From Pseudoclavibacter helvolus (GTDB taxonomy: Bacteria > Actinomycetota > Actinomycetes > Actinomycetales > Microbacteriaceae), in the NCBI RefSeq assembly GCF_014191305.1, contig NZ_JACHWJ010000004.1, positions 310,001 to 374,000 of the forward strand: a stretch of DNA of 64,000 nucleotides, written 5' to 3'. The stretch's first letter is position 1, and every line of letters starts with the position of its first letter. The notes beneath the pieces were generated by a model, which saw only the letters and a program-made list of their open reading frames with translations, was not told the DNA's origin and did not search any database. The position numbers were made by a program, and so were the translations under genes. Below are positions 14,325-19,358 of this stretch, piece by piece.

Positions 14325-14699
14325 GTGATCGTCGGGATCGGAGTCGACACTGTGGAGCTCGCGCGATTCGCGCGGGCTCTGCAGCGTGCACCTCGTCTGC
14401 GCGAACGCCTCTTCACTCCGGCGGAGCGCGAACGATCGCTCGCGTCCCTCGGCGCGCGATTCGCTGCGCGCGAGGCGGCCGTGAAGGCGCTCGGCGGAAT
14501 CGGGTCGCTCAGCTTCCTCGACTTCGAGGTTGAGAGCGGCCCGGCAGGGCGTCCGGAGTTCGCCCTGACGCCTGCGCTCCGCGCGCACCTGGCAGCTGTC
14601 GGGGTCGACCACCTGCACCTGTCGCTGACCCACGAGCGAACGACGGCAACCGCGTTTGTCATCGCCGAGCGGGCCGCTCCCGCGGGGTCTCGCTCGTGA
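14325..14699 (+). CDS. acpS: Holo-[acyl-carrier-protein] synthase
   Basis: AcpS transfers the phosphopantetheine arm of CoA to acyl carrier protein. The 124-aa product begins [15 protein letters not shown] (metal-binding Asp8) and has the second motif [13 protein letters not shown] with the conserved Glu/Lys. The start is GTG at 14325, six bases after glmS. Its TGA overlaps the GTG of the next gene (GTGA), so acpS and the alanine racemase are translationally coupled. The glmS-acpS-alr order is common in actinobacteria. Confidence 0.94.
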
Positions 14700-16567
14700 G
14701 CGGGCCCCGTATCGACGTCGACCTCGACGCCGTCCGTGCCAACGTGCGAGCCGTGGCGGAACTCACTGGCACGCCGCTCCTCGCCGTCGTCAAGGCGAAC
14801 GCCTACGGGCACGGCGCAAGCCAGGTGGCCAGGGCCGCTCTCGAGGGCGGCGCGGAGCGTCTCGGCGTCGTCGACCTCCGCGAGGCTCTTGCGCTTCGCG
14901 CGGACGGCTTCACGGAACCGATCCTGACGTGGATGCACGGGGCCCGCACCGACTGGCTCGCCGCTCTGGACGCGGACATCGAGCTTGGTATCTCGTCGCT
15001 TGCGCAGCTCGAGCTTCTCGACATCGGGTTGGGGCGGCTGGAGCACTCCGACCATTCCGTGGTTGTGCACCTCAAGCTCGATACGGGCCTCGGCCGCAAT
15101 GGCATCAGCGCGATCGAGTGGGAATCGGCCTTCACGAAGGCGGCCGAACTCGAGGCGCGAGGGCTCATCCGACTTGAGGGGCTGTTCAGCCATCTCGCCG
15201 GTGCCGGAGCGGCGGAGGACGCCGCCCAGCTGGCGTCATTCAAGCGCGCACTCGAGCTGGCTGCTCGCTGCGGCTTGACTACTTCTGTCCGCCACCTCGC
15301 AGCCACGGCGGGGTCGATGTCGCTGCCCGAGTCGCGCTTTGACCTCGTCCGCCTCGGAGTCTCCCTCTACGGGCTTTCCCCGTTCTCGGCGGGTACTGAG
15401 TGCCCTGTGGTGTTGCATCCGGCGCTCTCGCTGAGCGCGCCTATCCGCGAAGACCCGCGAGGGTTCAGGGTCGACCTCGGCCAGGCCGTCGGCCTGCCGC
15501 CGGTTGCTGCGGGCTCCGTCGAGCTCCTCGACGACACCGGGGCCGCGTGGCGTGTGGCATCCGTCGACTCCCTCGAGCTGCGAATCGAGCCCCTCGAGGG
15601 TGCCGCTGCTGCGTCCTCCCGACTCGATCAAAGCGAGGAACAGCCCCGCCTGCTGGTCATCGACGCTGCCGGCTCGGCAAGCGCTGACACGTGGGCGGCA
15701 GCAGCCGGGACCATCAACTACGAAGTCGTCACGCGGCTCAGCACGCGCATTCCTCGGCACTACTCTGGCGTCACCGCGCCGAGGGGGATGGGTCTGGCGC
15801 ACGCGCCGGCGCAGCGCGACGGCTGCGAGCTCGCGCTTGCGCCGCGCCGCGAGCTCACCGTCGACGTGGAGCTGCTGCGGACCCGCATGGGCGAGCGAGC
15901 TCGCGAGCTTGCAGGGGCACTTGCCGCAGGCATGGGGGCCCGCCACGCGGCCAGGGCCTTCAGTGTCGACGTCTCCGCGGACGCCTACGGGCACGGCGCC
16001 CACCTCGTGGCCGGATTGGCGCTCGAGTACGGGCTGCTCCCTCTCGTCGCCACGAAAGCCGACCTGGAGCACGTGGGTGAGGCGGACCGGCGTGCCACGC
16101 TTGTCGACCACGAGCGAACCAGCGACGCGGCGAGCCGTGCGGTCTACGGCTTCCACGACCCGAACGCGAGAGTCACGGTCTCCCTCACGAGCGAGCTCGC
16201 ACACGTCAAGCGGGTAACGGCTGGACACGGAGTCTCGTACGGCTACGACTGGATCGCTGAAGAGCCGACGACGCTCGGGCTCGTTCCGCTTGGTTACGCC
16301 GATGCGATTCCGCGCCGGGTGGCTGGCCGAGGCGAAGTTGTTGTCGGCGGCGAGCGGAGGCCCATCATCGGGCGTGTCGCGATGGATCAGGTGGTCATCG
16401 ACCTCCAGGACCAGGAGGCCTGGATCGGCATGCCGGTCTCGGTCTTCGGTTCGGAACCGCGCGACATCCACCTGCGTGAATGGGCCTCCTGGTCTGGCCT
16501 GGAGCCGCAGGCCTTCGTCGCCGCCTTCGGGCCGCGGATCGTGCGCCGGGAGCGGCACGCAGAATGA
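14696..16567 (+). CDS. alr: Alanine racemase, duplicated single-chain form
   Basis: Alr makes D-alanine for peptidoglycan using PLP. Normal enzymes are about 370 aa; this one is 623. Residues 1-230 form a full PLP barrel with lysine K33 ([10 protein letters not shown]) and GLFSHLAGA. Residues 231-355 should be the C-terminal domain but keep only its end ([11 protein letters not shown]) and lack SYG, GYAD and MDQ. Residues 385-480 resemble a shortened second barrel in which the lysine motif reads [10 protein letters not shown]. Residues 481-623 are a good C-terminal domain with catalytic Tyr515 (GVSYGYDW), GYAD and MDQ, but no TINYE. Alr sites form between two subunits, so this looks like a fused pseudo-dimer with one intact site. 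Starts GTG 14696, overlapping acpS. Confidence 0.85.
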
Positions 16568-16580
16568 GAGGCGGGTTCTG

Positions 16581-17159
16581 ATGAGGGATGAGACGACACC
16601 CGGTACTTCCGTCGAGCTCGCGACTGCCGACGACATGGTTCGGGCGGGCGAGCTCATCGGCGCGCAGCTGGCGGCAGGAGACGTCCTCGTGCTGACGGGA
16701 CCGCTCGGCGCTGGCAAGACCACGTTCGCGCGCGGACTCGGCGCCGCTCTCGGGGTGAGAGGCCCGGTAACGAGTCCCACGTTCGTGCTGGCCCGGACAC
16801 ATCCGTCGTTGGTCGGCGGCCCTGAGCTCATCCACGTCGACGCTTATCGCCTCGGAGACCCGGCGGAGCTCGACGACCTCGGCCTCGACCTTGGCGCGAG
16901 CGTGACGGTCGTGGAGTGGGGGAGTGAAGCCGTTCCGCTCATCACCGATCGCTGGCTCGAGGTCACGATCGACCGGTCGACGGCGCTGGCGACGTCTGTA
17001 GGAGACGACGAGGGCCCAGCCGACCAAGGGCTCGAGGACGACGACGAGCCGCTCGACCCACGTCGCCTGACGCTCACCGCGACGGGCGTCTTCGACCGGC
17101 CGCTGGAAGCATCGCTAGGGCGGGCGCTACGGGCAGAGTTCGGCCCCTCGCCCGCGTAG
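16581..17159 (+). CDS. tsaE: tRNA t6A biosynthesis ATPase TsaE
   Basis: TsaE is the ATPase that cycles the TsaB-TsaD complex during threonylcarbamoyl-adenosine formation at tRNA position 37. The P-loop GPLGAGKTTFARG (K46), the segment VTSPTFVLARTHPS and the VEWGSEAVP segment are family hallmarks. The 192-aa length is somewhat above the usual ~155; the extra is an acidic insert after residue ~135. The ATG at 16581 follows alr by 13 bases. The gene lies in the alr-tsaE-tsaB-rimI::tsaD run. Confidence 0.93.
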   Translation: MRDETTPGTSVELATADDMVRAGELIGAQLAAGDVLVLTGPLGAGKTTFARGLGAALGVRGPVTSPTFVLARTHPSLVGGPELIHVDAYRLGDPAELDDLGLDLGASVTVVEWGSEAVPLITDRWLEVTIDRSTALATSVGDDEGPADQGLEDDDEPLDPRRLTLTATGVFDRPLEASLGRALRAEFGPSPA

Positions 17160-17169
17160 AATCGCTCCC

Positions 17170-17778
17170 ATGCTCTTAGCGATCGATACGTCAGCTGGCA
17201 CGGATGTCGCGATCGTCACCCCGCACGGCCGTGTGTTGGCAGAACGACGCAGCGCGGACACTAGGCACCACGCCGAGGCTGTCGGCGGCGCGATCGCGGA
17301 GGTGCTCGCGGATGCTGGGCTCTCGCCGCAGCACATCTCTCAGGTTGTCGGCGGCATGGGCCCCGGCCCGTTCACGGGCCTCCGGGTGGGCGTCGCCGCG
17401 GCGCGGACGTTCGCGTTTGCACGTGGCGTGCGCTTCATCGCCATGCCGAGCCACGACGCGGCCGCCCACGAATGGCGGGCCGCGCATCCTGAGGCCGCAG
17501 GGGACCTCCTCGTCACGACCGATGCGCGGCGCGGCGAACTCGCCTGCTCTCGCTACGAGGAAGGGCTCCTCGTCGCGAGCTCCTGTGAACTGCACAGGCC
17601 GGACGCCGTCCCCGATTCCGCCAACCGCTTCGACACGAGGACGATCTCGGCGGCCCATCTTGCACTCGCCTGGCTCGACCGCGAGATCCACGGGCTCGAG
17701 GCCGAGGCCAACTCGATCATCTACCTGCGCGGCGCTGACGCCGTGCCGTCCAACGGGCCCAAGCGGGTGACGGGTTGA
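17170..17778 (+). CDS. tsaB: t6A biosynthesis protein TsaB
   Basis: TsaB is the inactive ASKHA-fold partner that dimerises with TsaD. The 202-aa protein starts [20 protein letters not shown] and has [20 protein letters not shown], both typical. It begins 10 bases after tsaE. Its TGA shares one base with the ATG of the rimI::tsaD gene (TGATG), implying coupled translation and close stoichiometry of the partners. Confidence 0.95.
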
Positions 17779-19358
17779 TGCGCGTCAACCTGCGGGATGC
17801 GGTCGACGACGACATCCCCTCGATGGTTCGGCTCGACGAGGCCGCGTTCCCGCTCGACCCATGGTCGCCATCCATGCTCGCTGGTGAGGTCAAGAGCCAG
17901 CACACGCGGTACGTCGTTGTGGAGGACACTTCGACGGGCGAGATCCTCGCGGCCGCGGGGGTCATGGCGCTCCAAGGTGGCGGCGAGGCCGACGTTCAGA
18001 CGATCGCCGTCGACGAGCGCCTGCGGCGAGGAGGCTGGGCCACTCGAATGCTGGCGGAGCTGTTCGCCTGGGCTGAGTCGCGCGGCGCGAAGCAAGTGTT
18101 CCTCGAGGTGCGCGAGAACGGCGAGGCAGCGCGCTCCCTGTACTCGGGCCTCGGGTTCGAGGAGATCGGGCGCCGGCCCAAGTACTACCCACGAGAGGGT
18201 GTGGATGCGATCGTGATGCGAGGACAGCTTCCAGGGGTGCGAACCTCCGCTGACGCGCGAGTAGCGGCGGGTGCAACGAGGGCACCGCTCGTGCTCGGCA
18301 TCGAGTCGTCCTGCGACGAAACCGGCGTCGGCATCGTTCGGGGCCGTGAGCTTCTGGCCAACGAGGTTGCCTCGTCCATGGACGAGCACGCCATCTTCGG
18401 CGGAGTTGTGCCCGAGATCGCTGCGCGCGCCCACGCCGACGCCATAGTGCCGACGATCGAAGCAGCTCTCGCGACGGCGGGAGTCAGGCTCGACGAGCTC
18501 GACGCGATTGCCGTCACGCAGGGGCCGGGTCTCGCTGGCGCGCTCATGGTCGGGACGGCCGCGGCCAAGGCCCTGCACGTGGCCACGGGCATCCCGCTCT
18601 ACACCGTCAACCACCTCGTGGGCCACGTGGCGGCGGACGTGCTGCGCGACGACGTCGGGCAGCTCAAGCTGCCAGCGGTCGCGTTGCTCGTCTCAGGCGG
18701 CCACACGTCGCTGTTGCACGTTCGGGATCTCGTCGACGACGTCGAGCTGCTCGGCGAGACGATCGACGACGCCGCAGGCGAGGCCTTCGACAAGGTTGCT
18801 CGCCTGCTGCGCCTGCCGTACCCGGGCGGGCCCGAGATCGACAAGGCCGCCGCTGGTGGCGACCCGAAGGCGATCCGCTTCCCGCGCGGCCTCACGAAGC
18901 CGAAAGACCTCGAGAAGCACCGCTACGATTTCTCGTTCTCCGGCCTCAAGACCGCCGTCGCTAGGTGGGTCGAGGCAAAGGAGGACGCGGGCGAGCCCGT
19001 GCCCGTGGCGGACGTGGCCGCGAGCTTCCGCGAGGCCGTCGCCGACGTGCTCACGGCGAAGGCCGTCGCTGCCTGCACCGCGCTCGGTGTGCCGCGCCTC
19101 GTCCTCGGGGGAGGCGTGGCGGCGAACGCCCGCGTGCGCGAGCTGGCGGAGGAACGCTGCGCAGCTGCCGGTATCGAGCTCCGCATCCCACCGCTCCGAC
19201 TCTGCACCGACAACGGAGCGATGATCGCCGCGGTCGGGGCGATGCTGGTCGCAGCAGGCAAGCCGCCGGCGCCGCTCGACTTCGCAGCGGACTCGACCCT
19301 GCCAGTGGCGACGCCGCAGGCATTGCACGCGGAAACAGCCATGGGGGAGCGCGCATGA
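17778..19358 (+). CDS. tsaD: RimI acetyltransferase / TsaD fusion
   Basis: A 526-aa two-domain protein. Residues 1-150 are a GNAT fold like RimI, which acetylates the N-terminus of S18 (acetyl-CoA loop [15 protein letters not shown], then [20 protein letters not shown]). Residues 171-526 are full-length TsaD ([16 protein letters not shown], metal histidines in [26 protein letters not shown]), the catalytic subunit that transfers threonylcarbamoyl to A37 of tRNA. In most bacteria the two are separate adjacent genes. No frameshift is needed to join them. Start ATG 17778; TTG 17775 is an alternative. Confidence 0.94.

Follow-up and report, generated by a model that had tools for sequence, protein, structure and literature searches.

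Two alanine racemase copies on one chain with complementary active-site residues: a probable single-site enzyme at the housekeeping alr locus of Microbacteriaceae

Canonical alanine racemase (Alr; TIGR00492; PF01168 with PF00842; structures 1SFT, 1VFH, 1XFC and 2DY3) is a homodimer with two equivalent active sites, in which all residues are present on each chain. Strych and Benedik reportedly found in 2002 that mutant Alr subunits complement each other in mixed dimers. Published Alr structures, whose residue positions we converted to Geobacillus numbering, assign Lys39, Tyr43, Arg136, His166, Ser204, Arg219 and Tyr354 to the subunit that holds PLP (cis residues), and Tyr265', Tyr284', Arg290' and Arg309' to its partner (trans residues) (PMC3146814, PMC3245724); Arg309 is printed without a prime in PMC3245724, whereas PMC3146814 primes its equivalent. 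Catalysis is described as relying on two bases that act from opposite sides of the substrate, the PLP lysine and Tyr265' of the partner (PMC3146814), and dimerisation has been reported to be essential for Alr activity (PMC3245724).

The protein described here scored below the thresholds of two families in which Alr domains likewise lie within longer chains, VanT (NF033131; 189.6 versus 460 bits) and the MurF-Alr fusion (NF008897; 188 versus 804 bits). Each of these holds one Alr copy. The serine palmitoyltransferase pair SPT1/SPT2 differs from Alr in fold type. It is nevertheless similar in being a PLP enzyme with homodimeric relatives that turned heterodimer and in which one partner, like one half of the fused protein, lacks the PLP lysine; because this heterodimer presumably has a single active site, the principle has a precedent (PMC6148460). 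It differs in its reaction, in being eukaryotic and in consisting of separate chains, and neither half-barrel reduction nor fusion is described in the available part of the source (PMC6148460); the two halves in our window are fused, while separate genes occur in genus g77. Trypanosomatid deoxyhypusine synthase is also formed by a paralogue pair of which one member is catalytically dead and both are needed, but it is a heterotetramer encoded by separate genes and is presented as a case of activation by a dead paralogue and not as one of residue-by-residue partition (PMC3663545). Among the papers listed in searches of the openly licensed PMC literature, none deals with an Alr that is duplicated, split or heterodimeric, and we found no precedent there for such an arrangement in Alr or as a single chain.

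The window, by which we mean the entire 64,000-nucleotide stretch that was analysed, contains one open frame with a GTG start that encodes 623 aa and comprises two Alr copies, A and B (Table 1). It shares with canonical Alr the fold domains, the locus and the cis and trans residues, and presumably the reaction; it differs in carrying one residue set per half, in the truncation of its second barrel and in having both halves on one chain. Pfam Ala_racemase_N matched residues 8-229 (model positions 1-220 of 220; 188.9 bits, cut-off 24.1), and Ala_racemase_C matched residues 495-617 plus a second stretch (137.1 bits, cut-off 25). On their own, residues 231-356 matched positions 93-127 of Ala_racemase_C with 28 bits against the cut-off of 25. 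The chain bears the marks of the Alr sequence family (TIGR00492, both Pfam domains, the cis set in copy A and the trans set in copy B), at a length of 623 aa with two copies where a canonical single-copy enzyme has about 370 aa. To NCBIfam and Pfam the gene looks like any other alr, so the two-copy layout would go unnoticed in automatic annotation.

Table 1. Features of the fused racemase gene and its neighbours (positions in the window).
Feature	Position	Strand	Evidence
acpS (holo-ACP synthase), upstream neighbour	14325..14699	+	PF01648 above cut-off; stop overlaps racemase GTG by 4 nt
Fused two-copy alanine racemase	14696..16567	+	TIGR00492 alr, 281.5 bits, cut-off 168
Copy A barrel, residues 1-235, complete, cis PLP-site residues present	14696..15400	+	PF01168, 1-220/220
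Lys33, equivalent of PLP lysine Lys39	14792..14794	+	K in 17/17
Copy A C-terminal domain, residues 236-358; lacks SYG segment, GYAD and MDQ; TINYE kept	15401..15769	+	hhalign E 4.1e-21; motif counts
Tyr342, equivalent of Tyr354 (cis phosphate ligand, specificity gate)	15719..15721	+	Y in 17/17
Linker, residues 359-381	15770..15838	+	High dN/dS; pLDDT <50 at 360-382
Remnant of the copy B barrel, residues 382-490; Ser427 in place of the Lys in [10 protein letters not shown]	15839..16165	+	hhalign E 2.3e-8; Lys lost in 17/17
Copy B C-terminal domain, residues 491-617; SYG, GYAD and MDQ intact; Tyr354 equivalent gone	16166..16546	+	PF00842; residues in 17/17
Tyr515, equivalent of catalytic Tyr265'	16238..16240	+	Y in 17/17
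tsaE, downstream neighbour, marks the housekeeping alr locus	16581..17159	+	PF02367 above cut-off; synteny

Against the solved Alr chain 1vfh the protein aligned in three pieces, with residues 7-249 on 11-255, 492-586 on 247-341 and 324-358 on 343-377; as judged by this alignment, the three pieces together correspond to one Alr. Profile-profile comparison with hhalign accounted for the remaining parts: the C-domain of copy A matched canonical Alr C-domains, and the copy B remnant matched the first part of the barrel (Alr profile positions 4-77) with a probability of 95%. These matches show that residues 231-480 derive from Alr; the opposite would have refuted the reading of the first-pass annotation, which was made from the sequence alone. 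The description given there of a complete first barrel with Lys33, of a shortened second barrel with an altered lysine motif, of a TINYE motif in the middle of the chain (residues 339-343) that is missing at the end, and of an intact second C-terminal domain with Tyr515 and MDQ (563-565) also agrees with what we found.

The residue split was read in 17 aligned fused sequences, namely that of the window and 16 homologues, from two genera. Copy A keeps the equivalents of Lys39, Tyr43, Lys129, Arg136, His166, Arg219, Ile352 and Tyr354 in 17/17; at Asn203 it has Ala in all 17, and at Ser204 Thr in 16 and Ser in one. Copy B keeps Tyr265, Tyr284, Asp286, Arg290, Arg309, Met312, Asp313 and Gln314 in 17/17, of which Met312' is a residue that we take to belong to the trans set, and has lost Tyr354, the PLP lysine and over half of its barrel. 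Conversely, SY[GDN], GYAD-like and MDQ motifs were present in 0/17 copy A C-parts, and the lysine motif, the Arg136 motif and TI.YE in 0/17 copies B, so that neither copy carries both residue sets as a subunit of the canonical homodimer does. The claim that the first C-domain had been stripped of SYG, GYAD and MDQ thus holds for the motifs, although in the window the Asp of MDQ persists (SVDS). Among 78 single-copy Alr controls, the lysine motif was found in 78, SYG in 76, GYAD in 77, MDQ in 76, TI.YE in 71 and the Arg136 motif in 75. Since 66 of these 78 controls carry all six motifs on one chain while the complementary split is kept in 17/17 fused sequences, the split is not a matter of chance. 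The C-domains are the most telling part, because copy A dropped the trans motifs yet retains the cis residue Tyr354, and copy B shows the reverse. Judged from these counts, the C-domain is divided according to which residues the crystal structures place in cis and which in trans.

Separately, we observed that copy B retains Tyr43 despite the loss of the lysine (window 15968-15997, [10 protein letters not shown]) in 17/17 fused sequences; Tyr43 is also present in 21 of 24 B copies of a second Alr-like pair described below and in 6/6 B copies of genus g77.

Purifying selection acts on all four domains of the fused protein. In six pairs among five close genomes, dN/dS was 0.05-0.14 in the barrel and 0.14-0.22 in the C-domain of copy A; in copy B, the remnant gave 0.14-0.26 and the C-domain 0.03-0.09. 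For the linker, of which 19-23 codons were compared per pair, the ratio was near neutral at 0.37-1.27. The strongest constraint lies on the A barrel and the B C-domain, the two domains with the most catalytic residues.

An AlphaFold2 model was computed from an alignment of 29 rows (26 proteins of 24 among at least 80 named loci, together with the window protein and each of its halves) and had a mean pLDDT of 72.4 and a pTM of 0.74. For copy A, block means of pLDDT were mostly 82-97 in the barrel and 51-80 in the C-domain; they were 70-95 in the C-domain of copy B and 24-54 in the linker and B remnant, with most of the remnant below 50. With Foldseek, the model aligned to four C. glutamicum Alr chains over 366-367 columns (rmsd 3.0-3.9 A, TM 0.84-0.87), and to the other 46 chains listed over 623-637 columns at 16-18 A. 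When the separate halves were left out of the alignment, canonical rows covered the A barrel and the B C-domain, and residues of about 250-490 were uncovered. The model suggests that half A would take the fold of a complete Alr subunit, including a normally placed C-domain, and that the C-domain of B would lie at some other position.

The fused gene occupies the housekeeping alr locus. The order glmS-acpS-alr-tsaE flanks a single-copy alr in other genera of the family (L050-L053, L055), and one further locus (L054) has two Alr copies at this place. Downstream of the fused gene, tsaE is followed by tsaB and tsaD; reading by eye, we noted that a 527-aa frame at window positions 17775-19358 appears to join a RimI-like acetyltransferase to TsaD.

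Of 19 genomes (10 of genus g1 and 9 of g21), 18 encode the fused protein in a single open frame, and in the nineteenth, G007, both halves lie at contig ends. The architecture for which the first-pass annotation proposed a search is present elsewhere in the family, in genomes of at least two genera, g1 and g21; genus counts from our genome searches for fused and paired genes, which scored at most 3 and 7 candidates per genome, respectively, are lower bounds. Named relatives by sequence include, among the matches listed, Cryobacterium, Microbacterium, Curtobacterium and Microcella. At least 80 named loci had Alr matches; among the matches listed, 78 had one Alr frame and two had tandem frames (L082, L097) as judged by ORF layout, and the fused form appeared among none of the matches listed at 80 named loci, an absence that carries no weight.

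Across the 19 genomes of g1 and g21, the fused gene is the sole Ala_racemase_C gene in eight (G001, G009, G029, G108, G168, G217, G260 and G297), is accompanied by a second pair and no single-copy Alr in six (G000, G002, G003, G007, G328 and G378), and coexists with a single-copy Alr in five (G004, G005, G006, G008 and G354). Because it lies at the alr locus and is the only Ala_racemase_C gene in 8/19 genomes, the fused gene very probably makes the cell's D-alanine. A D-amino-acid transaminase (TIGR01121) above cut-off was found in 0/20 genomes tested, including the eight with a sole Ala_racemase_C gene. Weak aminotransferase matches occurred in 17/20 genomes, with none at all in G001, G328 and G378, and M. 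tuberculosis Rv0812 has been reported as a D-amino-acid transaminase that is also an aminodeoxychorismate lyase (PMC8105722). In view of these weak matches and of the Rv0812 precedent, G001 is the one of the eight genomes in which another source of D-alanine is best excluded. In some genomes the fused racemase is probably the only such source.

Other arrangements were found at the alr locus of related genera. Genus g77 repeats the split with two genes there, A followed by B (six loci read). Its A genes keep Lys39, Tyr43, Arg136, His166, Arg219 and Tyr354 in 6/6 and have lost Tyr265 and Met312 in 6/6, with Tyr284 kept, while its B genes have Thr for Lys, a short barrel, and Tyr265 plus Met312 in 6/6. 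The split also recurs in genus g50 (2/2 loci read), where copy A is followed in the same frame by a bare C-domain with Tyr265 and Met312. One of these frames (G058, L185:7686-10052) unites half A, a bare Alr C-domain and TsaE, as identified by Pfam, in 789 aa; TsaE may have an internal start in it. Six further g50 genomes have frames of 745-775 aa at that place, known by frame length. Among the nine g50 genomes sampled, the frames of 745-789 aa hold the only Alr_C matches in seven, and G335 and G385 add a single-copy Alr. Two Curtobacterium loci (L082:3938-6246 and L097:3830-6243) have two full-length tandem Alr genes at the alr locus, with MNA for MDQ in the first gene and TIGEE for TINYE in the second. 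We considered this tandem as an early intermediate and rejected it, as the barrel tree splits the copies; since the second falls in the second-pair clade and the first among housekeeping Alr, they are two different Alr types side by side.

We consider it highly likely that the fused protein is the cell's alanine racemase and that, as a pseudo-heterodimer on a single chain, it has one functional active site. Copy A would bind PLP on Lys33 in its complete barrel and supply the residues of its own site, including Tyr342, and copy B would lend the partner-site residues, that is, the second base Tyr515 (Tyr265'), the entryway around GYAD, the Arg and MDQ. Lys33 and Tyr515 would then act as the two bases on opposite sides of the substrate. 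A second site would be unable to form, since copy B lacks the lysine and most of the barrel, and the C-domain of copy A lacks the SYG segment. The reported need of Alr for dimerisation would explain why copy B must remain. As to origin, the housekeeping alr was probably duplicated at its own locus, followed by complementary loss and then fusion. We infer the dimer-like pairing of A with B, the racemase activity, the single site per chain and this order of events. The first-pass annotation had read the gene as a duplication followed by partition of the two active sites. Duplication and partition remain the best reading in the light of the cis/trans losses in 17/17, the purifying selection and the 8/19 genomes with a sole gene, but one site appears to have been kept and the other abolished, rather than two having been partitioned.

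The pairing could also take place between chains, with A of one chain meeting B of another in a swapped dimer that has two sites per chain dimer. The linker of 23 aa is fast-evolving and modelled with low confidence, and the separate A and B genes of g77 suggest that a link is unnecessary; the high local concentration of the two halves should, however, favour pairing within the chain, and we regard the swapped dimer as rather unlikely. It is very improbable that the fused protein racemises an amino acid other than alanine. The Ala at Asn203 in 17/17 and the Thr at Ser204 in 16/17 of the A halves might hint at another substrate, but Ala at the former place is common among single-copy relatives, the specificity gate Tyr354 and the trans entryway residues are kept in 17/17, and eight of the 19 genomes have only this Ala_racemase_C gene. 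We give hardly any credence to the idea that A works alone or as an A-A dimer, with copy B either decaying as a relic or serving regulation only. Copy B has indeed lost its lysine and most of its barrel; yet the SYG motif is absent from the A C-domain in 17/17, the trans residues of B are invariant, its C-domain has a dN/dS (0.03-0.09) as low as that of the A barrel, and in g50 the C-domain is the very portion of B that survives. Finally, although two-gene versions occur in another genus, an assembly or frameshift artefact joining two neighbouring genes is refuted by the homologues, with one open frame in 18/19 genomes of two genera and a conserved layout.

If the fused, single-site reading is right, the protein would be a clear-cut example from nature of how duplication, degeneration and complementation play out within one active site. 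The enzyme is very probably essential, and Alr is known as a target of antibiotics. Why one of two equivalent sites would be given up becomes testable with it, as does the question of whether fusion follows from the need to hold two non-redundant halves together. What the minimal partner domain is forms a further question, to which g50 suggests a bare C-domain as an answer. Such proteins would also provide natural one-site enzymes in which catalysis by Alr can be studied apart from subunit coupling. The analysis also points to a further, candidate racemase pair at a cell-wall locus.

This second Alr-like pair lies away from the alr locus, in the order B-A, and was found in many genera (a lower bound); we read 24 pairs from 15 genera. 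Its A copies have the Lys, Tyr43, Arg136, His166 and Arg219 in 24/24 and lack Tyr265 and Met312 in 24/24, and its B copies lack the Lys in 24/24 and have Tyr265 and Met312 in 24/24. At the position of Tyr354, a known specificity site (PMC3485190), the A copies carry Asp in 20 and Glu in four of 24. Near the pair (L166:8834-10695, on contig C1 of G000 at about 841.8-843.7 kb, and L167-L184) there is a gyrB/parE-like gene at 19/19 loci and gatD-murT at 14/19. In G003 (L023:1588-4083) the pair, in the order B-A, forms one open frame of 832 aa. As far as sequence can tell, the second pair may serve the cell wall by racemising an amino acid other than alanine.

We compared the histories of these partitions in two barrel trees, a careful one of 79 rows, which excluded L031 and L033 (repeats of other loci) and L034, L035, L191 and L192 (divergent single-copy Alr), and a quick one of 83 rows, which excluded L031 and L033. 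In the careful tree the fused A barrels form one clade (support 100/95), and the second-pair A barrels form a separate clade (100/99) that also contains unsplit Alr from Curtobacterium and g35. A single origin of all partitions, which would unite the fused A barrels with the split ones of the second pair in a clade, was rejected (AU p 6.8e-6), which argues for at least two independent partitions by the A barrels. Joining the fused A barrels with those of g50 (AU p 0.17) or g77 (AU p 0.41) was not rejected. In the tree of C-domains (92 columns, deep forks weak) neither a second-pair clade (p 0.063) nor a clade of fused gene and second pair (p 0.065) was rejected. By the A barrels, then, the second pair appears to have been partitioned independently of the fused gene; the short C-domain tree does not decide. 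At the order level we searched for the B model in 198 genomes, 184 of them outside the family, and outside the family none among the matches listed (E <=1e-30) covered the model from its first 27 positions, a threshold which weaker B-type genes would escape. At the phylum level (149 genomes, E <=1e-38), too, no match outside the family among those listed covered the B model from these first positions, and weaker genes would likewise escape.

We tentatively propose that the active site of Alr-type racemases was partitioned repeatedly within a single bacterial family; the A barrels point to at least two such events (in the housekeeping Alr and in the gatD-murT pair), and there may have been four. 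The lending half would have dwindled, first to a short remnant of the barrel and then to a bare C-domain, with the parts occurring as separate genes, as A-B fusions, as a B-A fusion and as a frame of A, C-domain and TsaE. The second pair would form a heterodimer that racemises some other amino acid, possibly the D-diamino acid found in B-type peptidoglycan.

A frame with a different order of parts was observed in G354, where 595 aa encoded at about 879.6-881.1 kb of contig C1 run from a C-domain through a barrel to a C-domain end.
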